Positions 30,225 to 62,785 of a DNA stretch of 64,000 nucleotides are shown in pieces. This DNA comes from Eremomyces bilateralis CBS 781.70. Taxonomy: Eukaryota > Ascomycota > Dothideomycetes > Eremomycetales > Eremomycetaceae. Position 1 is the stretch's first letter. Each line of letters begins with the position of its first letter. The translations under genes and the position numbers were made by a program. The stretch is taken from positions 766,808 to 830,807 of the forward strand of contig NW_022985067.1 in assembly GCF_010015585.1 (NCBI RefSeq), in the 5' to 3' direction. Below the pieces are notes generated by a model. The model was given only the letters and a program-made list of their open reading frames with translations. It did not search any database and had not been told where the DNA came from.

Positions 30225-32133
30225 TCACCACCCGCCGCCAATGGTGCTGGCCAGCCCGGCAACCCGCTGGGTATCGGTGATGTCTTTTCCTACATCGCTC
30301 TCCACCTTCCGGTAGGTCGTGAATGCCAGTTTCTCGATCGGCACGCCGGTTAGGGACGTCCAGTGGTCCAGAACGCTCAGGATGTACGTCCTCGAGATGC
30401 CGTCGACGACGTCCGCATCGACATCGCTCGCATCGACTGGTGCCTGGCCGTTCAGCGCATGCCCATTGCTGGTCATCCGCTCCGTCGGTGGATCGATCTC
30501 CATCGCATCACCGTTGGCCGTCGTTCCTCGCTGCTCTTCGGAATCTGACTCGGCCGAAAAGTATGCCTCATCCACCTTCGCTAACCACTCCCTCTGCTCC
30601 TTCGGTCCCGCCACGGTCCGCCCCTCCGCATCCCCCTCCCTCAACCCCAGCTCCTGCAACTCGGTCACGCGGATCTGCCCCCCGCCATTCGTGCAACCCC
30701 CAGGACACGCCATCACCTCCACATACGCATACTCGCTCCCAGGTGCCGCATCCCCCTCGCGCTTCCGCACCGGCGCCTTCCGCGCACCCAGCAACCGGTT
30801 CGTCTTCGGCTTCATCTTCCGTACGAGGTTTTGAATGTTGCGGAACCCGTAGCACCGCATACCTTTCCACGCGGTGCGGCCGTCGCGGTCCTCGACGACG
30901 ATATCGAGCACGTCGGCGTTGCGGCCGCGGTCGACGCGGATGCGGCTGCCGGGGGTGGAGGCGGCGACGCGTTTAGCGATGTGGGAGAGGAAGCCGCCAG
31001 AGGTGCCGGTGGGGTCGGCGGGGGCGCCGCGGTTGGAGTGGGAGGGTGGGAAGAGGAAGGCGGAGAGGGTGGGGTCGGGGAAGCGGGGACGAGTGACGGG
31101 TTGGGGAGGGAGGGTGGCGAAGTTGAGGTTGCGGAGGGAGGCGACCTGGAGGAGTTCGCGGGGGGTGATGACACAGTCGACGTCGCGGACGGGATCGGAT
31201 GGGGGAGCGGAGTCGGGTGCCCAGGCGTCGGAGGTGAGCTCGCCGCGGGAGGCCTCGAGTTTCTTGTCGAAGCATGGCATTACTGCGAGATGCCAGATTT
31301 GGGACGGCGGGATGCCGTATGCCCTGGAGAGCACGGATTTCAGCAACGCGCCAGAGAGAGACTGCGGGGATTTGACGGCTGAGAGATTCGGAAGGAGTTG
31401 CGGATGGGTCTTCTCGGCGTAGCAGATCCAGCCTGGACAGGCCGAGGCGAGGACGGGTCGTTTCGGGGAGGAAGTGGAAGTAGCGGAATTGGCTTCCTCG
31501 TAGGCCAATACAAGGGATGCGGAGCGGAGCGCGTTGGTGTCAATCACCCAGGCGAAACTGCTGTGGTGCTTCCCTCCCGTCTTCACGCCATTGGGCCCGG
31601 AGAGAAGTTGTTCGATTAGGTGTCCGGCATCGGAGAAGGAGATGCCATGGGCAGCGGCGATGCTGGCTTTGGCCTGCGGGCTGACGCTCGCGACGAACAG
31701 CTTTCCTTCAGATACACCATTGGAAACTCCATTTGCCCCATTTTGTGTGTGGTCATGATATTCGGCTGTCCTGGAGCCAGAAACGAGATCGGAGGGGTCG
31801 AGGGAGGGGTTAGCATCCAGTGTGTCCAGCACTTCTTGGTGTGACTGCAGTGATACGAGAATGGCCTCCGCAGATGTGACACAGCCAGAGCATGCGAGGC
31901 AATCGGTCAAGGATATCTGTGCCGGAGTGGGGTTTGCGGCCGCGACTTTGTCTTCCGTCGTGACTTCATACGGATTCTATATTGCTCGTCAGTCTGAATC
32001 GCAAGTGTCATAGGGACTGGCATACCGGCTCGCCATTCTGCTTCTCAGCAGGAATGGATTCTATGGGTTTAATACATGCAACGCCCGGTGAAATGAAGTC
32101 ATTCAAGTCATCCGCGGAGAGAATGGCGCTCAT
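30225..32133 (-). CDS. nar1: Cytosolic Fe-S cluster assembly factor NAR1
   Basis: Exons 32133-32026 and 31976-30225 give 619 aa. The protein is the iron-only-hydrogenase-like component of the cytosolic iron-sulphur assembly (CIA) machinery, which passes 4Fe-4S clusters to nuclear and cytosolic enzymes. The N-terminal cluster ligands are complete: Cys20, then Cys62, Cys65 and Cys68 in DCLACSGC. The hydrogenase-like core shows [23 protein letters not shown] and [13 protein letters not shown], and the chain ends in a conserved Trp (STIGGGW). Species-variable Ser/Pro and Asp-rich inserts explain the length. The 49-nt intron near the N-terminus has GTATGC, CTGAC and ATAG. It is transcribed away from RPB12 with 417 bp between start codons. 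Confidence 0.95.
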
Positions 32134-48514: not shown

Positions 48515-49621
48515 TCACGCGTAACTAGGAACCTCAACGTTCTTCACAACCACCTTATTATCCTTATTGTTTGCATAATTCGCATCAATACTCCCAAACC
48601 GTATCCTCACCCACTCCCCTGCAGTCACCCCCACCGGCGGCAGCGCTCGATTATTATCCCCTTCAATCTGCCCCCTCTCCAAAAGGGGACTCTTCACTGC
48701 CTGCAAGAGCGTGCTATCGTCCGGCCCAGCGAAGTAGATAACCCCGTACCTTGGAATGTCCCTCTGATCCTCCGGCGGCAGGACCACCCGATGGATGGAG
48801 CTCTCGAGATAGCCTCCGGTGAGGAATGACAAGGTGTCGGCGACGTTGACGGTGATGCTTTCTTTGAGCGGCTTTACCCACTTCCACTTCTTCTCCCCGT
48901 ATGGCCGAACCTGCAGCGCTGCGACCGGCTGTCGCATCAGGAGTGTGAAGGTGCCGAAGTCCGTGTGTCCATATACGTTTTGCTCGATGTTATGCTGCTT
49001 CATGATCTCCAGCTCGTCCGGGGTTCGGGGATGATACAGCATGTATCTGAGATGACACTGGGATTGCGACTCGTAATCATGCAGCTTCCACAGCGCTTCT
49101 TCATCGTCGAGTTCCATGATGATCGCGGACAAGATCAGCAGTCGTCGAAGGACGTATGACGCCAAATGTCTCTGGAACTTCTCCGTCTTTTCCGCGTCAT
49201 CGACAAGCGGCTGTGGTCTCAGCCTCTCTTTGTAGAAGTCGTTCCATTTCGGATCATCGTACAGCTCTAGGCTATCGACTAGACCATGCTGCTGCTTGCG
49301 GCTTCCGCGTGGCTTCCACCCAAAGAACCCCTGCTTTGTGGGGTCGACCCGGTATTTCTGTTTCGCCTCACCAGGTAGATCAAAGATATCTTTGGCGCGA
49401 GCGAATTGGTCGTCGACCTCTTCCTCGGATAGGCCGAAGTTGATCACGTAGAAGAAGCCGACGGTGGAGATGGCATGCTTTAGTTGGGATGCGAGCTTCT
49501 TCTTTCCGCCGGGTTCGTCGAATTGAGAAAGGTCAATGGTCACTAGGTCGGCCCACTCGAGATCCGCAGTAGTCTCTGGTATATCTTGATATCGAGTGTA
49601 CTCAGTGGCAGTCATCGTCAT
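48515..49621 (-). CDS. 2-oxoglutarate/Fe(II)-dependent dioxygenase
   Basis: A single exon of 368 aa of the isopenicillin-N-synthase-like superfamily. The N-terminal DIOX_N part (about residues 27-130) has IDLSQFDEP and STVGFFYVINFGL. The iron triad is complete: His219 and Asp221 in YGHTDFGTFTLL and His277 in SSIHRVV, with Arg291 (PRYGVIYF) placed to bind 2-oxoglutarate. The usual third residue of the R-x-S motif is Gly here. Substrate is unknown; such enzymes hydroxylate small molecules. It is the downstream neighbour, same strand, of the ring-cleavage dioxygenase 1 kb away, which hints at but does not prove a joint pathway. A TATATAAG element lies near 49766-49774, about 145 bp upstream. Confidence 0.9.
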   Translation of the reverse strand: MTMTATEYTRYQDIPETTADLEWADLVTIDLSQFDEPGGKKKLASQLKHAISTVGFFYVINFGLSEEEVDDQFARAKDIFDLPGEAKQKYRVDPTKQGFFGWKPRGSRKQQHGLVDSLELYDDPKWNDFYKERLRPQPLVDDAEKTEKFQRHLASYVLRRLLILSAIIMELDDEEALWKLHDYESQSQCHLRYMLYHPRTPDELEIMKQHNIEQNVYGHTDFGTFTLLMRQPVAALQVRPYGEKKWKWVKPLKESITVNVADTLSFLTGGYLESSIHRVVLPPEDQRDIPRYGVIYFAGPDDSTLLQAVKSPLLERGQIEGDNNRALPPVGVTAGEWVRIRFGSIDANYANNKDNKVVVKNVEVPSYA

Positions 49622-50606: not shown

Positions 50607-51607
50607 CTATAACCTTGAGACATTGGCGTCCTCGGCGTTGGGGTTCACCACCGGGGCAAGCGTGACGTTGTACTCCAATTCTAGCGTCGCCTTCTCGTCG
50701 CCCTCTAGGGGCACGAAGTCGACGACCAGATCGTCCTTGACGGCGAACACGGAGTCGTCCTCGAGATGGGGGTCTTCTTTGGGGAAGATCTGGGTGGTGA
50801 CAGGCTTGTATCCAGCGTGTGTGACCTATTCCAACGTTAATTCTGGCGTGGAGCACTCATTCGGATCGCAACATACCATGAGATGGATATGCGCCGGCCG
50901 CCACGGCGACCTATCCATAGCTGACAGCAGCTTAAACGCCGGCCCCTCCGTCGGCAGCGAATACGCCGTCGGCTTCAACGCGTAGAAATGATACTCCCCG
51001 TTCTCGTTCGTGCGGAACTTCCCCCTTAGGTTGTTCGGCGACTGATTTTCGGGGTCCTGGAAATCGTACTTCCCGTTCGACGACGCCTGCCAGATGTCGA
51101 ACACGGCGCCGGCAATCGGCTTCTTGGTCTCCAGGTCCAGCACCCGCCCGTGCATCAGCGTCACCTGCCCGTCGTGCGGGTCCTGCATGATGCTGTCGCC
51201 GGGGTTGCGGAAGGGGGCGTGCGGGCTCCAGAAGGGGCCGAGGATGGAGGAGGAGGTGGGGATTTCACCGGATTCGGAGACGTGTCTATGGGCGATTTCG
51301 TCGACGAGGCTGGGGAGGGTTAATTTTCGGATTTGGGCGCATTGAGGCTGTGTGGTGCTTACGATTCAAGTCCGATGACGTCTGATATCCGGTGGGCTTC
51401 ATTTCGCTGTGCGGTGCTGATTTGGCCGATTGTGTTCATGAAATTCACGCCGATCATCCACTCGTCGATCGTGAGCTCCACCTCCCGAGCGAAGTCGTGG
51501 ATGTGTGACATGAGCGATCCGAGGACTTCTCTGGTTCGCGGGTCGGTTTTCGGGCCCATGGCCTCCACCACCATCTTGGTGAAGTTCGGATCGAAACGTT
51601 CAGCCAT
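50607..51607 (-). CDS. Intradiol ring-cleavage dioxygenase (catechol/hydroxyquinol type)
   Basis: Exons 51607-51363, 51309-50877 and 50825-50607 give 298 aa. It has the N-terminal helical dimerisation domain (residues about 12-95) that marks the catechol and hydroxyquinol 1,2-dioxygenase group, then [10 protein letters not shown] and the catalytic beta-barrel. All four non-haem Fe(III) ligands are present with family spacing: Tyr163 (GKYDFQ), Tyr198 (TAYSLP), His222 and His224 (PAHIHLM). The reaction opens a 1,2-dihydroxybenzene between the hydroxyls to a cis,cis-muconate (or maleylacetate from hydroxyquinol). No signal peptide, so intracellular. The last intron (50876-50826) sits just after the ligand motif. 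A TATA-like run (TATATATTAATA) lies about 165 bp upstream in the shared intergenic region. Confidence 0.92.
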
Positions 51608-52568
51608 TGTGAAATAGGGTATCAGTAGATCGGATTTACCGAAAAACGCTTAAGTGGAATGGGGATAGGGTTTGGCACTGGGATGTTATGTGCAAAAGAC
51701 TTTTGATTGCTCGGAGAGTGGATGGAGGAGAGATATCTTGATATCCGACAGAAACTCGGTCTGGCTTCCGGTATTAATATATAAATAAAAGCTCCATTAC
51801 GATACGGTCCCGACAACCAGAGCCTGGAGAAATAGGAGCTAATACCTAGCCTCATCCCCACAATGGGCCAGGGCGTCCGACTACAATTGACGGCAGATCA
51901 ATCGGCTGTTCTCTTATCCGTCCCAATCCGTCCACTAAAACCGTCGATGGTGCTTGGAGGGAGATCCGATTTTGCATGCCGATGAAATAGATCGCATCAT
52001 GGTCAGGCGTTTCCTAGAGCTTTTCTAGATCTGATCCTCCGGAGAAATTTATCGTCGTGCAGTTTCAGGGCGTCGAAGGATACTGGTTGAGAGCTCTCGA
52101 TGCGATCCGATTGGGAATGGGGAGTCGCAAGACGCAAACTCGCAATGGTCGGGAAACGTGGAGAAGGAAATTCGCCACCTTGTGCTCGGAGTGCATCATC
52201 CAAGATTACCGACTACGGGTGCCGCTGTGGTGGGGCATTTCTGCCCCGCGCCGTTCTGGTGATATAGGTACTGACTAGAATGACAGCACGCGACGCGATT
52301 GTGGGGGGGCAATTTCGGTGATGAGCAATGTGCGGAAGTTTGCCGTTTTTAACATCCATGATCCATCCAGGATTTCAGGCGCATCGTGAACACGGCGAAA
52401 TCTCGGGATTGTGGGGTTCTCGGGACCGTGGGGTTGGTAATTGAGCAATTCATTCGGCTGGCGGATCGTAGCAAAGCTTCCATTCTTCCAGAAACTCCGT
52501 GGAAGCGTGCCAATTGCAGGATATTGAGTCCCGTATATCCGCATTCCGTCTCCTAGGACATAGACATC
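51608..52568. promoter_or_regulatory. Shared divergent promoter of ring-cleavage dioxygenase and cyclase
   Basis: 961 bp between two start codons pointing outward. A TATA-like run at about 51771-51789 serves the dioxygenase side. CGG-N5-CCG at 51631-51641 has the form of a Zn2Cys6 regulator half-site pair but lies only 24 bp from the start, so its role is uncertain. Joint control of the two genes is inference. Confidence 0.45.
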
Positions 52569-53817
52569 ATGCTGCACCATCTGATGATAGGGACTTGGAC
52601 CCCTCCAGGGGCCATATTCACAGTCGAATTCGATGATGAGAAATTGACTTTGAAGCTGGTCAAGCGGACTGCTATACCGCAAGATGAGCCCATCTCATGG
52701 ATGACCTTTGACGTGAGTTACACCTCCCTGGAGGATGACGCGCAAGACTAACTAACACAGAAGTATAGCACTCGAAGAAAAATATATACGGCGCATCAAT
52801 GAAGAAATGGTCGAGCTACACCGTGAAGAGTCCGACTGAAATCGAACATTATGCCTCGCATGAGATTGGAGGCCACCGTATGAACCCTTAAATCGCTTGA
52901 TAAGTAGCCCGGATTGACTCCGAAATAGCATCAGCAACGAGCGCAGAGTCCAACACACGAGCGATCTTCCTTCTAGCAGCGCAAAAGCCCCCCTATAATG
53001 TCTACTGCAATCCATTCTACAAGTTCGCTGGCTACGGCAACATCTTTTCCGTCCACAAGTCTGGGGCACTGAAGGAGAACATCCAAGATTACGAGTATTG
53101 CCCCGAGTCCGCGATCCACGGCATGGTTTTCGACAGCTCTGAGAAATACCTATACTCTGCAGATATGTGGGCGAACAAGATTTGGACGCATAAGAAGGAC
53201 CTGGAGACTGGAACCTTGACGACTGTTGGGAGCGTCGATGCCCCTGATCCGGGAGATCACCCGCGGTGGGTGGAGTTACATCCAGACGGGCACTACCTTT
53301 ATGCCTTGATGGAGGGAGGCAATAGGCTGGGAGTGTATCTGATAGACGAGAAGACACACTTGCCCGTGTTCACTCAGATCACATATCCCCTCATTCCACC
53401 AGGTAAACGACCAGACACCATAATCACTCTTCCACCAACCCACTAATGTCCACAGGAATGGGCACCTCCTTCCCCAAAATGTACCGCTCCGACGTCGTTT
53501 TCCTCTCCCACTCCAAAACCTACCTCTTCGCGACCGCCCGCTCCAACTCGCCCTCTCTAACCGGATACATCTCCGTCTTCAAGATCGGACCGACCGGCAA
53601 TATTGAGCGGCAAATCTGCATGAATCCGACGCCGACCAGCGGCGGTCATTCAAATGCCGTGAGCCCCTGCGACTGGAGCGACGAGTGGCTGGCGCTCACG
53701 GATGATGAGAAAGGGTTTGTGGAGATATATCGGTGGAGAGATGAGTTCTTGGGACGGGTGGCGCATTTGGATATTCCGGAGCCGGGGTTCGGGATGAATG
53801 CGATTTGGTACGATTAA
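52569..53817 (+). CDS. Carboxy-cis,cis-muconate cyclase-like beta-propeller
   Basis: Exons 52569-52712, 52769-52877, 52929-53402 and 53456-53817 give 362 aa. The start MLHHLMIGTWTPPGAIFTVEFD and repeats such as HGMVFDSSEKYLYSADMWANKIW, HPRWVELHPDGHYLYALMEG and GGHSNAVSPC are those of the fungal 3-carboxy-cis,cis-muconate lactonizing enzyme, a seven-bladed propeller of ~365 aa (cytosolic; lactonase superfamily). It closes ring-cleaved muconates to a muconolactone. The four exons join in frame with GTGAGT, GTATGA and GTAAAC donors and strong TAACTAAC or TAATG-type branch regions. Its divergent pairing with a ring-cleavage dioxygenase supports the assignment. Whether it prefers carboxylated muconate is not visible. 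Confidence 0.9.
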
Positions 53818-54389
53818 CAGAGCGATAATTGATATCCACTGGCATGTGTCAATCAAGCTGTACTATAACTATAATCATAGACCTGTGTGAATTCTTTGGA
53901 ATATTTATTCCTCGATACATGAATTCCGCCCAAGACGTTTCCCCGATAAATGCCTTCGTTGCTCAAATGGAGCTAGTCCTAACACAGGATAGGGTGTCTC
54001 ACCTTAGCGGCTTAGCTCCAGTCGACATCATCGGTTCAGATTCAGTTGCCGATTTACAACTCCGCCGTGTTTTCCCACGTTTCTTGCCCTCCGACAGATC
54101 CACCTCGATGAGGGCTTGGACCGCTAGAGCTCAAGAGATGCATTTGAATTATCCTTCGGGAGTAATATCGGACATTGCTCCAGCCACGTCACACGTGTTA
54201 ATATTTCCATAATCCACCACTAATTGCAATATGTTGACCTTGCGCTGACAAAGTCTCTATTCGCTTGAACTCAGCCTAGGCGAATATTCCATAATTCTAT
54301 TCTACAATATACCTCTATCCATTGCGTTTAATGTTCTCTAGATACTCATCGGGTGGTTTTATTCGCATCAGACACAATCGGTATTCATC
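53818..54389. other. Intergenic, promoter of the EthD-hydrolase gene
   Basis: A plus-strand frame at 53829-54212 (127 codons) lacks family features and is probably chance. AT-rich sequence before 54390 fits a promoter. Confidence 0.4.
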
Positions 54390-56093
54390 ATGTCTTCCAA
54401 ACCAGGGCTCCTCTATGTAACCATGCAACCTAGCCCCTCTCTTCCCATCGAGCGCTTCCACGACTGGTACAACAACGAACACGGTCCGCTCCGTCTGCGC
54501 CTCCCATTTTTCCGCAACGGATTGCGGTACCGCGCGTCGGATCTGAGTTCCGACCAGCTGGCATCGGCAAAGCGCCCGGAATGGCTGGCGATCTACGATG
54601 TGACAGATACGGAGGAGCTGGGGAAGCCGGTGTATACACGGCTGCGAGACGCGGACGTGAAGACGTCGAGGGAGAAGGAGACGATGAAGCAGATCAAAGT
54701 CGACAGGGAGATCTTAGACTTAGCCGGCGAATGGAAGAGTGAGAGCTTCGAAGAGGTGGAGACGCTCCGTGGCGATGTAGAGACGGAGGGCAACGTTCTC
54801 ATGGTCGTGAGCGTGAAACTCCAGCTTAGCAAAGCGGCCGAGGAACAGGTATTGAACTGGTTCCCCTCAGAACATATTCCGCTCGTCTCCAAGTCTCCCG
54901 GCTGGCGCCGCACCCGTCACTTCGTCACTTCGAGTCTCGACGATCAGCACGTACGAACATTCCTTACACTCCATGAATGGGCGCCATCTAATAGCATTGG
55001 CGGGTCGGAGTTTCGGCAAGCCTCGACCATTGAATGGGTGCAACGGCTCAACAAGGAGACGGCCGCAGATATCAGTATCCGGACGTATAACCTGCATCTC
55101 ATCTTCGGATCCGCACCGAGACACCTTGGTGACATCGCCGAATGGTCCTACAGCAACGACATGACCCGCACATTCCCCCCCACCGACCCAACTAGCCCCT
55201 TCGGCAGCGCCATCGAATCCTACATCACCACCCCCGACGGCGCCGCCCTTCCCTTCCGCCTCGAAGGCTCCCCCTCCCCATCCGCCCCCCTCATCGTCTG
55301 CATCAACTCCATCCTCACCACCTATCCCATCTGGGACTCCTTCGTCTCCTCCTTCTTCGCCCACCCGCCCAACCGCCGCTACCGCATCCTCCGTTACAAC
55401 CCCCGCGGCCGCTCCCAACACACCGGCACCGCTCCCGTTTCCATCGACCTCCTCGCCGCCGATGCCATCACCCTCCTCGACGCCCTGCGCGTGCCCAAGG
55501 CCGCGTGCGTCATCGGCGTGTCGCTGGGCGGGATCACGGCGCTGAACACGGCGCTGAAGCACGCGGGGCGGGTGGAGGCGTTCGTGTCGTGCGATACGAA
55601 TGCGCGGGCGCCGCCGAGCAATGCGGCGGCGTGGGACGAGCGGATCGCGGTCGCGGAGAAGGAGGGGTTGACGGCGGATGGGAAGGCGGTGGTGGGAGAG
55701 CGGCTGGCGGAGATGACGGTGCGGCGGTGGTTTGTGGGGGAGAGTTACGATGGGGGGGCGATGGAGCGGGAGGCGGAGCGGGTGAAGGAGATGGTACGGA
55801 CGAATAGTTTGGAGGGGTTCCGGAGGGGGGTGAGGGCGTTGTATGCGTATGATGTTGGGGGTGAGATGGCAGAGGGGAAGGTGAGGGGGTTGTTTGTGGT
55901 GGGGAAGGGGGATGGGGTGTTACCGGATACGATGAAGAAGATGGCGGACGCGTATCGGTGGAGAGGGGCGGATGGGAAAGAGGGAGGGGTGGAGTTGAAG
56001 GTGGTGGATGGGGCGGGACATTTGCCGATGGTGGAACAGGGCGGTGCGGTGGCCAAACTGGTACAGGAGTTCTTGGCTGAAGTACCGGTATAG
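54390..56093 (+). CDS. EthD-EthD-alpha/beta-hydrolase fusion (enol-lactonase-like)
   Basis: A single exon of 567 aa. Residues 1-120 and 132-240 each look like an EthD/dimeric alpha-beta barrel domain: IERFHDWYNNEHGPLRL in the first, LNWFPSEHIPLVSKSPGW in the second. Residues about 275-565 form an alpha/beta hydrolase of the 3-oxoadipate enol-lactonase type with the full triad: Ser378 (GVSLGG), Asp508 (GKGDGVLP) and His544 (GAGHLPMVEQ). Hydrolases of this type open beta-ketoadipate enol-lactone. The EthD fold includes methylmuconolactone isomerases, so I infer a possible isomerase-hydrolase enzyme acting after the cyclase next door. The lower half of the gene is very G-rich. Codon usage shifts from C-ending to G-ending runs inside the hydrolase, without a frame break. 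Confidence 0.88.
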   Translation: MSSKPGLLYVTMQPSPSLPIERFHDWYNNEHGPLRLRLPFFRNGLRYRASDLSSDQLASAKRPEWLAIYDVTDTEELGKPVYTRLRDADVKTSREKETMKQIKVDREILDLAGEWKSESFEEVETLRGDVETEGNVLMVVSVKLQLSKAAEEQVLNWFPSEHIPLVSKSPGWRRTRHFVTSSLDDQHVRTFLTLHEWAPSNSIGGSEFRQASTIEWVQRLNKETAADISIRTYNLHLIFGSAPRHLGDIAEWSYSNDMTRTFPPTDPTSPFGSAIESYITTPDGAALPFRLEGSPSPSAPLIVCINSILTTYPIWDSFVSSFFAHPPNRRYRILRYNPRGRSQHTGTAPVSIDLLAADAITLLDALRVPKAACVIGVSLGGITALNTALKHAGRVEAFVSCDTNARAPPSNAAAWDERIAVAEKEGLTADGKAVVGERLAEMTVRRWFVGESYDGGAMEREAERVKEMVRTNSLEGFRRGVRALYAYDVGGEMAEGKVRGLFVVGKGDGVLPDTMKKMADAYRWRGADGKEGGVELKVVDGAGHLPMVEQGGAVAKLVQEFLAEVPV

Positions 56094-60409: not shown

Positions 60410-62125
60410 TCATTTGGTGGAATCTTGAACTTTGTACAATATCCTAATGACGACAGGTCTGATTTTGAGAGGGGGAGAATTGACTGTAAATTGAAAGCGC
60501 TTCTCCAGAATCTGTACAGTCCCTTTAGCGCCTTTGAAACGCTCATCTGGTTTGCTGCGATTTACAGCGTTATTATCGTCAAGGACATTGAATCGTCCAG
60601 AATCAAGATCCTTTTTGGTAATCCCATATGTCCATCCATCTCCGAGGTACGTTTGACAATCGGCATCAGGGACTGGGAAACTGATACGAAGCGTCGTTCC
60701 ATCCTTGAGAGGTAAGTTAAATGATGCGTCCTCGCGTCCTACAGGTAACGTCGCTTCGTCTTTGTAAAAAGATACGTTAAGCCATGCGTTTTGTTTAGGT
60801 GTGGTGACTGGCGGTATGGGGACTAATCCATACGTGTATTTGTATTCCCAGACGTCAGGGGCTCCTCCTTGTTTTCCAGGCAGGAGTGTATCATGTGATA
60901 TATCGCCACACAGAATGGGTAGGATGGCGTCGGTGTAGGGGATACCATCTAGCTCGAAGCGCTCTCGGGCATCAGGCGCAGGAGGTTTCCAAGGCTTCCG
61001 TCGAACGTCGAACGTCGAACCTTGGATGCATATATCTTCTGCCGACCCTCCGACCTCGGATGGAAGGAGTACGGCTGCTGGAGGGAAAGAAATTCGACGA
61101 TAAAAAGACTTCCCCAGGCGCGATCGATTGGAGTTAAGAGGTATGCATGCTCGGCCGTGCTCTTGTCCAGACCGCGAGGATGCCTCCAACATGGCATAAC
61201 AGCCGCTCAGTGTTGTCACCAACGGTAGGGTTATTCTCAAGCCCACGCTTGTAATGTGAAAGGTGGAGGTGGGAGCGTGGTGAGTTGTTACTAGATTAGT
61301 TGCCACAAATTGCCCGCAGTTTTTGAATACGGCTGGGGAAGGGGCCAGGAAACTTCTCCAGAAAATAGGAACGGCGGGGGTCCAACTCCAGCAAAACATC
61401 GTGTGGTCATTGGAGACTTTGATTATCTCTTCTTGGAGCCTCAAGAAAGCCTTGCTTCCTTCACCGTATAGAAGCGGCATGTTGATGTTAAACAGACCAA
61501 GCATACAGTAAGCCATGTCCTCTGGCCGGGTCGTCGATCGTGATGCTAGCCAGGACATCCTCTCCGCCACGCTGCACCAAAAGAAATCTGGATCCTCTTG
61601 GAGATATTGCCCACGGATCCCGGTGATTTGGGATATAAGAGAACCCATGGACAACTTCGTTCCGAACTCGGCCCATCGCTTGTCGAAAAAGACGAGGTTC
61701 CCAGGAGCAATTAGCTCTTGGAGGGTCCAGCCTCTAGTAAACCATCGGGAAGAAGATAGACTCACCAACGGGTCTTGTCCGTCTTCCGGGGCCCATTCGA
61801 AGTCCTCTAGAAAGGTGAAGCACACGTGTGAGTCTCGATACCACATATACATCGAGTTGATGGCCTCCGAGAGCTCCGCGGAGCTTGACTTGTCGATACA
61901 GTTGGTGTCGACCCATATGTACTCTAGGTCCCAAGTGAGTGTTTGCTTGCAAGCATTTCTGATCTTCTCGGCCCCTTTCGTGGATGCCGTGCGTTTCTCG
62001 GGGTCCTGCCAGTCCTGAAGACTGACTTCTTCGTCGCACCAGGTATGAGAGAGAATGGCATAGGGAGGAAACTCTGGGCCGAAAAAGTCCTCCAAGTGGA
62101 GGGTTCGGGCATTGATTAAACGCAT
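60410..62125 (-). CDS. HET-domain protein (heterokaryon incompatibility type)
   Basis: A single exon of 571 aa from the ATG at 62125, which gives the typical HET start MRLINARTLHLEDFF. The same frame stays open to 62368, but the extra 81 residues are unlike the family. HET motifs are in order: YAILSHTWCDEEVSLQDW, YIWVDTNCIDKSSSAELSEAINSMYMWYRDS, then SRWFTRGWTLQELIAP and RPEDMAYCMLGLFNINMPLLYGEG (to about residue 245). The C-terminal half has no NACHT, WD40 or ankyrin part and looks like the variable beta-rich region seen in stand-alone HET proteins. HET proteins mediate non-self recognition and regulated cell death in filamentous fungi; the role of this copy is not known. The frame is intact. 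Confidence 0.88.
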   Translation of the reverse strand: MRLINARTLHLEDFFGPEFPPYAILSHTWCDEEVSLQDWQDPEKRTASTKGAEKIRNACKQTLTWDLEYIWVDTNCIDKSSSAELSEAINSMYMWYRDSHVCFTFLEDFEWAPEDGQDPLVSLSSSRWFTRGWTLQELIAPGNLVFFDKRWAEFGTKLSMGSLISQITGIRGQYLQEDPDFFWCSVAERMSWLASRSTTRPEDMAYCMLGLFNINMPLLYGEGSKAFLRLQEEIIKVSNDHTMFCWSWTPAVPIFWRSFLAPSPAVFKNCGQFVATNLVTTHHAPTSTFHITSVGLRITLPLVTTLSGCYAMLEASSRSGQEHGRACIPLNSNRSRLGKSFYRRISFPPAAVLLPSEVGGSAEDICIQGSTFDVRRKPWKPPAPDARERFELDGIPYTDAILPILCGDISHDTLLPGKQGGAPDVWEYKYTYGLVPIPPVTTPKQNAWLNVSFYKDEATLPVGREDASFNLPLKDGTTLRISFPVPDADCQTYLGDGWTYGITKKDLDSGRFNVLDDNNAVNRSKPDERFKGAKGTVQILEKRFQFTVNSPPLKIRPVVIRILYKVQDSTK

Positions 62126-62785
62126 CCGTGGAATAAATTCAATGATCGCCGGCTCTTCAATGTCTGCTGGACAAACTGGAAACACGGAAGGAATAGTTTG
62201 AAAGGTGAGCACGCAAGTTGACAACCCGACTTTGATGAAGACTAGGCTGAAGTTTATAGGCCATTTTTCGAGGATCGGCACTGCTCCAAATGCACCAGGC
62301 TTTCTGAATTTCCCAGCCTGACATCTGGCAATTCGAATAGACTTGGGATTAGGGTGTGTTACATACAACTAAAACCTTGAAGTTGATGGGCTAGGATGCG
62401 GACACAGGGCGTGGCAGTGCTCGCCAATCCGTCCAAACCAACTATCACCATCAAGCTTTCCTCTATCAAAGTCATCTACTCTCGAATCAGAGAACCACAA
62501 GTAGTTTGATATCCCTTGGCTAGAGCTTAACGGCCTTAGGTTGGTAAACTCAATCCACTATAGAAGAGCAATGTGATGCATGACTATGGAATCATCGTGT
62601 GTTTAAAGGAAAGAGGTTCGCATTACGTGGTGGTTTTGAGGGTTTACTGGGCTTCTGTGATGTGCGACGCCGCAAATATAACAGGTATATCTCGATGTAA
62701 TTGTGCGTTGCGGTTCCAAGGCATAGGAAGTCTCGCCAGGGATACACTGGGTTCCCTTACAGCCGGTTGCCTCTTTTCATTAATA
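62126..62785. other. HET promoter region
   Basis: 660 bp between the HET start and the transposable element. Nothing else recognised. Confidence 0.45.

Follow-up and report, generated by a model that had tools for sequence, protein, structure and literature searches.

The locus described here raises the question of what three adjacent genes of the fungus Eremomyces bilateralis CBS 781.70, encoding an intradiol dioxygenase, a propeller-type cyclase and a two-part hydrolase, do together. The genes occupy positions 50607–56093 of a 64,000 nt stretch of contig NW_022985067.1, which is referred to as the window. All three are intact, and the dioxygenase and cyclase genes are divergently transcribed. 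Judged from homology, protein layout and neighbourhood, the trio very probably represents prcA-cmcA-chdA, the upper protocatechuate branch of the fungal beta-ketoadipate pathway. Protocatechuate is an aromatic acid derived from lignin. The dioxygenase would open it to 3-carboxy-cis,cis-muconate, the cyclase would close this product to 3-carboxymuconolactone, and the hydrolase would convert the lactone to beta-ketoadipate. The initial annotation had assigned successive steps to the three genes, which was borne out.

When combined in vitro, the Aspergillus niger enzymes PrcA, CmcA and ChdA take protocatechuate to beta-ketoadipate, and protocatechuate induces all three genes together (PMC10406623). 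The adjacency of the trio is not due to chance: strong homologs were found for each gene, and the probability of this arrangement under random gene order was about 7e-8 for a genome assumed to hold 9,500 genes. The enzymes and the chemistry are known; unusual is the side-by-side arrangement of all three genes.

The cyclase and the substrate of the pathway

The cmcA-like cyclase gene (52569–53817, plus strand) has four exons and encodes 362 amino acids; its introns are at 52713–52768, 52878–52928 and 53403–53455. The protein matched the carboxy-cis,cis-muconate cyclase of Neurospora (1JOF) over the whole length with an E value of 1.2e-177, and 249 of the 360 aligned residues (69%) were identical. 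It is four residues shorter than 1JOF after the IPPG motif and one residue longer in the LETG loop. Pfam assigned it to the Lactonase family (PF10282, 4.3e-16). The model is one of several splice choices, and the second intron of 51 nt was picked for its branch-point-like context and the fit to 1JOF. No second cyclase copy was found in the genome assembly (26.6 Mb in 62 contigs), all four matches falling inside the window gene.

The initial annotation had considered a new substrate possible. The genes would then form another pathway, in which a different substrate, a substituted catechol, leads to an intermediate resembling carboxy-muconate. This is very improbable. It could draw on a gene for a 2-oxoglutarate/Fe(II) oxygenase (48515–49621), which is separated from the dioxygenase gene by 985 bp, shares its strand and had been suggested to belong to the group. 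This gene is intact and encodes 368 amino acids with the iron motif H219-x-D221 and H277, but its matches in the Protein Data Bank (PDB) were diverse (TropC, thymine dioxygenase and others), and nothing was found that ties it to the trio. The cyclase is close to the solved 3-carboxymuconate cyclase, and the hydrolase is ChdA-like in size and layout. As the sole copy found, the cyclase would also be needed for the ordinary pathway, should the fungus possess it. We therefore rejected a new substrate: the cyclase is too near the known enzyme and is the only copy found.

Assignment of the dioxygenase and gene order in other fungi

The probable protocatechuate 3,4-dioxygenase gene (prcA-like; 51607–50607, minus strand) has three exons, encodes 298 amino acids and is interrupted by introns at 51362–51310 (53 nt) and 50876–50826 (51 nt). 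Pfam matches were obtained to Dioxygenase_N (9.1e-27) and Dioxygenase_C (2.4e-39). The iron ligands Y163, Y198, H222 and H224 are all present, so that the two tyrosines and two histidines required in the intradiol family are in place; these ligands as well as the coordinates and strands given in the initial annotation were confirmed. The divergent region between the dioxygenase and cyclase genes (51608–52568) comprises 961 bp. It had no 10-mer in common with the region before chdA, and no shared regulatory site was seen this way.

Several findings weigh against the assignment of the trio to the protocatechuate branch. The top PDB match of the dioxygenase was PnpC, and the next ones included hydroxyquinol dioxygenases. 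The top plasmid match (47.6% identity) lies in a catechol-type cluster with muconate cycloisomerase and catC. Neither the PDB nor the plasmid search yielded a characterised fungal PrcA sequence for alignment, and the collections searched held no characterised fungal ChdA sequence, so that the likeness to ChdA rests on its published description. A counterpart of A. niger NRRL3_00837, which is essential there, had no certain match in the genome. Two AhpD/CMD-like genes (CMD, carboxymuconolactone decarboxylase) are candidate counterparts, on contigs C9 (G000:C9:631669-632055, L039) and C4 (G000:C4:781429-781794, L123).

The PDB and plasmid matches would also be expected if the enzyme were a 1,2-dioxygenase for catechol or hydroxyquinol, next to cmcA and chdA without a part in their pathway, and protocatechuate were opened by a dioxygenase encoded elsewhere in the genome. 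In Ceratocystidaceae a cyclase gene is located upstream of the gene for a dioxygenase, CDO2, which the authors assign to the catechol branch (PMC8896014). We consider this explanation unlikely. The neighbours in the window are a protocatechuate-branch cyclase and a ChdA-like gene, and two other genes seem to be available for the alternative substrates. Both dioxygenase domains were found in two further genes of the genome, on contigs C21 and C2, which are 37–43% identical to the window dioxygenase by exon; judged from motifs, the C21 paralogue looks more hydroxyquinol-like and the C2 paralogue more catechol-like. The C2 paralogue (G000:C2:1527377-1528239, L022) is interrupted by an in-frame stop codon in the part for the N-terminal region; an assembly error, a missed intron or decay to a pseudogene may be responsible. 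Two Dioxygenase_C matches of lower strength, on C22 and C3, stayed under the family cut-off.

The substrate cannot be read from the PDB and plasmid matches, since PrcA of fungi is a member of the same superfamily: the A. niger enzyme is a relative of catechol dioxygenases and shares 33.2% identity with one from yeast (PMC9204233). For the same reason the mismatch which the initial annotation had seen between the classes of the dioxygenase and the propeller is only apparent and poses no conflict. From neighbourhood and elimination, the window dioxygenase is a probable PrcA. The neighbourhood of the trio helps to separate PrcA from related dioxygenases.

The locus numbers of two aspergilli speak partly for the assignment, with two of the genes linked in each species, and partly against it, with the third gene elsewhere. 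In A. niger the tags of prcA (NRRL3_01405) and chdA (NRRL3_01409) are four numbers apart, whereas the cyclase gene NRRL3_02586 is away from both (PMC10406623); in A. oryzae cmcA (AO090023000419) and chdA (AO090023000421) are two numbers apart and prcA (AO090038000040) is elsewhere (PMC12335040). If the tags follow chromosome order, this suggests pairwise linkage only in these species, whereas all three genes are adjacent in the window, which has the complete set. According to PMC8283699, the protocatechuate-branch genes of A. nidulans and Scedosporium are not clustered, which agrees with the earlier view that a compact unit is notable. The third gene considered there is presumably the one for the AN5232-type protein, which is no longer regarded as the hydrolase (PMC10406623), but the dioxygenase and cyclase genes were apart as well. 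In the passages covered by our searches of open-licence papers, we found no description of all three genes side by side. Set against a fungus with all three genes in one unit, the incomplete linkages of A. niger and A. oryzae would appear as what is left of an earlier cluster.

The two halves of the hydrolase and their possible origin

The third gene (54390–56093, plus strand), for a probable 3-carboxymuconolactone hydrolase/decarboxylase, is chdA-like and consists of a single exon. Its open frame extends from 54342 to 56093, with the first ATG at 54390, and the protein, called ChdA in the following, has 567 amino acids and 62.8 kDa. The C-terminal half (55200–56090) is a PcaD-like alpha/beta hydrolase domain with Ser378, Asp508 and His544 as triad candidates; its best PDB match was the 3-oxoadipate enol-lactonase 2XUA, and its best NCBIfam match was pcaD. 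The scores to the NCBIfam models PcaD, PcaDC and PcaCD (117.3 of 255.85, 116.1 of 390 and 78.4 of 430 bits) were all far below the curated cut-offs. The earlier description as an enol-lactonase-like hydrolase holds for this half but not for the whole protein, since the N-terminal part of about 260 amino acids was not mentioned. No other full-length copy was found in the genome, the sole further match being weak and covering 97 residues on contig C14. A scan of genome contigs with the whole protein confirmed no relative. A small protein with the motif EEHIPDV on C14 (L025:2934-3350) is weakly similar to the N-terminal half and has no Pfam match.

The N-terminal half (54390–55160) contains two DUF4286/EthD-like domains. 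It had no Pfam match above a curated cut-off; the score to DUF4286 (PF14114) was 24.0 bits and did not reach the gathering score of 25.8. When an alignment of 22 rows, two of them fragments, was used, PF14114 was matched by 16 rows at E≤0.1, EthD by 14 and ABM by 8. DUF4286, EthD and ABM share the DABB fold. In a tblastn search of 72,556 plasmids the N-terminal half retrieved 22 records at E≤10, and 6 of the 15 records listed carried the annotation DUF4286. Residues F23, W26, Y27, H31, P33, R46, Y69, L77, Y82 and R106 were invariant in the 22-row alignment, and R35 was nearly so. A PDB profile search with this alignment gave a single, non-significant match (2FTR, E 0.37). Single-sequence structure prediction reached a predicted local distance difference test score (pLDDT) of 36.3 for the whole protein and 60.8 for domain 2 of the N-terminal half. 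The model of this domain broadly follows the ferredoxin-like order beta-alpha-beta-beta-alpha-beta with an extra short strand; with this low-confidence model the top Foldseek match was YwmB, and IsdG/IsdI matched weakly (E about 1e-3). Taken together, the uncharacterised N-terminal half of ChdA resembles bacterial DUF4286 proteins.

Relatives of both halves occur as neighbouring genes in bacteria. In Massilia putida (NZ_CP019037) the gene after the DUF4286 gene encodes an alpha/beta hydrolase, which was the top-ranked plasmid match of the C-terminal half, and the next gene belongs to the CMD family; a second alpha/beta hydrolase gene is located upstream. Paraburkholderia largidicola has a hydrolase gene of the upstream type, a DUF4286-like gene, a transporter gene and then a CMD gene. 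Four other annotated plasmid neighbourhoods had no such hydrolase gene beside the DUF4286-like gene, and two further records carried no annotation.

The Massilia/Paraburkholderia alignment was used to scan the genomes of 84,980 bacterial and archaeal species. It retrieved 340 relatives, and the following results refer to the best 80 of these, with neighbours counted from 60 bits upward and some loci cut by contig ends. A DUF4286 score of 130 bits or more was reached by 27 loci, of which 22 had an adjacent gene for a PcaD-like hydrolase (19 upstream, 8 downstream), 22 had a CMD gene and 18 had both. None of the remaining 53 loci had an adjacent hydrolase gene and two had a CMD gene; in one of the 53 (L070) hydrolase and CMD genes are located further upstream. 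A relative of the window dioxygenase was not found in any of the 80 loci, and the cyclase had one weak match (L113, 52 bits). The gene group hydrolase–DUF4286–hydrolase–CMD (e.g., L029:9178-12005) occurs in alpha- and betaproteobacteria.

The hydrolase tree comprised 50 rows: the C-terminal half of ChdA, 8 downstream and 4 upstream DUF4286-linked hydrolases, 6 annotated PcaD proteins (two long ones trimmed to 265 residues), 2 other hydrolases from plasmids and 29 background hydrolases from a scan of Alphaproteobacteria. ChdA, on a long branch (1.56), formed a clade (support 100/97) with a Roseomonas hydrolase and the 8 downstream hydrolases, which had been chosen for their position next to DUF4286 genes. 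When 289 genomes were scanned with the C-terminal half, the best match was the DUF4286-linked hydrolase of genome G001 (119.9 bits; next 100.6), a genome included because of its DUF4286–hydrolase gene group. Among 30 loci examined with flanks of about 1.5 kb, that of G001 alone had a DUF4286 neighbour. The grouping of the C-terminal half suggests a gene fusion; the suggestion comes mainly from this half, and the N-half tree does not resolve the matter.

Other results speak against a fusion. For the Roseomonas member of the clade no DUF4286 gene is annotated within 6 kb, and Roseomonas was absent among the DUF4286 matches of the plasmid tblastn search. Constraining ChdA to the 8 linked hydrolases without Roseomonas cost 11.5 log units and was not rejected (approximately unbiased (AU) test, p 0.178). 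Most hydrolases beside DUF4286 genes, namely the upstream ones, represent a second type, which is more distant. In the tree of the N-terminal half (88 rows), ChdA stayed outside the clade of hydrolase-linked DUF4286 proteins at a weak fork (62/52), although a tree with ChdA forced to the linked rows was not rejected (AU p 0.117). The N-terminal half scored highest with DUF4286 proteins lacking a hydrolase neighbour (L111, L114 and L106 with 72, 70 and 65 bits), and the best hydrolase-linked one (L041) reached 64 bits.

We tentatively propose, as a possibility less likely than not, that ChdA arose by fusion of neighbouring bacterial genes for a DABB-type DUF4286 protein and a PcaD-like lactonase, and that its N-terminal half, instead of being a true decarboxylase, acts as a proton shuttle in the manner of muconolactone isomerase. 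With its carboxyl group on a double bond, 3-carboxymuconolactone is chemically ill-suited to direct decarboxylation. A shift of the double bond would give an enol-lactone, whose opening would yield a beta-keto acid that easily loses CO2. Muconolactone isomerase, an enzyme with the DABB fold, moves a ring double bond. The N-terminal half of ChdA would perform this shift, with H31, R35, R46 and Y69 as candidate key residues; the C-terminal half would open the enol-lactone, and CO2 would be lost spontaneously or with an AhpD/CMD-type partner. If true, this could explain why NRRL3_00837 of A. niger is essential in vivo and without effect in vitro. With this proposal, the origin and the mechanism of the unexplained half of ChdA become open to testing; the enzyme is part of a route of lignin degradation that bacteria run differently.

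Two further genes of the window were noted. The region 30228–31976 encodes a protein of the iron-only hydrogenase large-subunit family, which is probably an ordinary Nar1-type iron-sulfur protein. A gene for a HET-domain (heterokaryon incompatibility) protein (60413–62368) is located near the trio.

Comparison with known systems

The protocatechuate branch of A. niger comprises the same three enzyme types, and its cyclase is single-copy (Sgro et al. 2023, PMC10406623), in line with the sole copy found in the genome studied here. ChdA of A. niger has 60.95 kDa, a C-terminal half like 2XUA and an uncharacterised N-terminal half presumed to be a decarboxylase; by this description, the window protein is of similar size and has the same two-part layout (PMC10406623). 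Its C-terminal half, with the Ser/Asp/His candidates, resembles bacterial PcaD and the corresponding part of the PcaDC/PcaCD fusions. The partner half in these fusions is a CMD-type PcaC, whereas it is DUF4286/EthD-like in the window protein. The bacterial DUF4286–hydrolase–CMD groups, as in M. putida, contain relatives of both ChdA halves as separate genes in the same order, but no relative of the window dioxygenase was found in the 80 loci.

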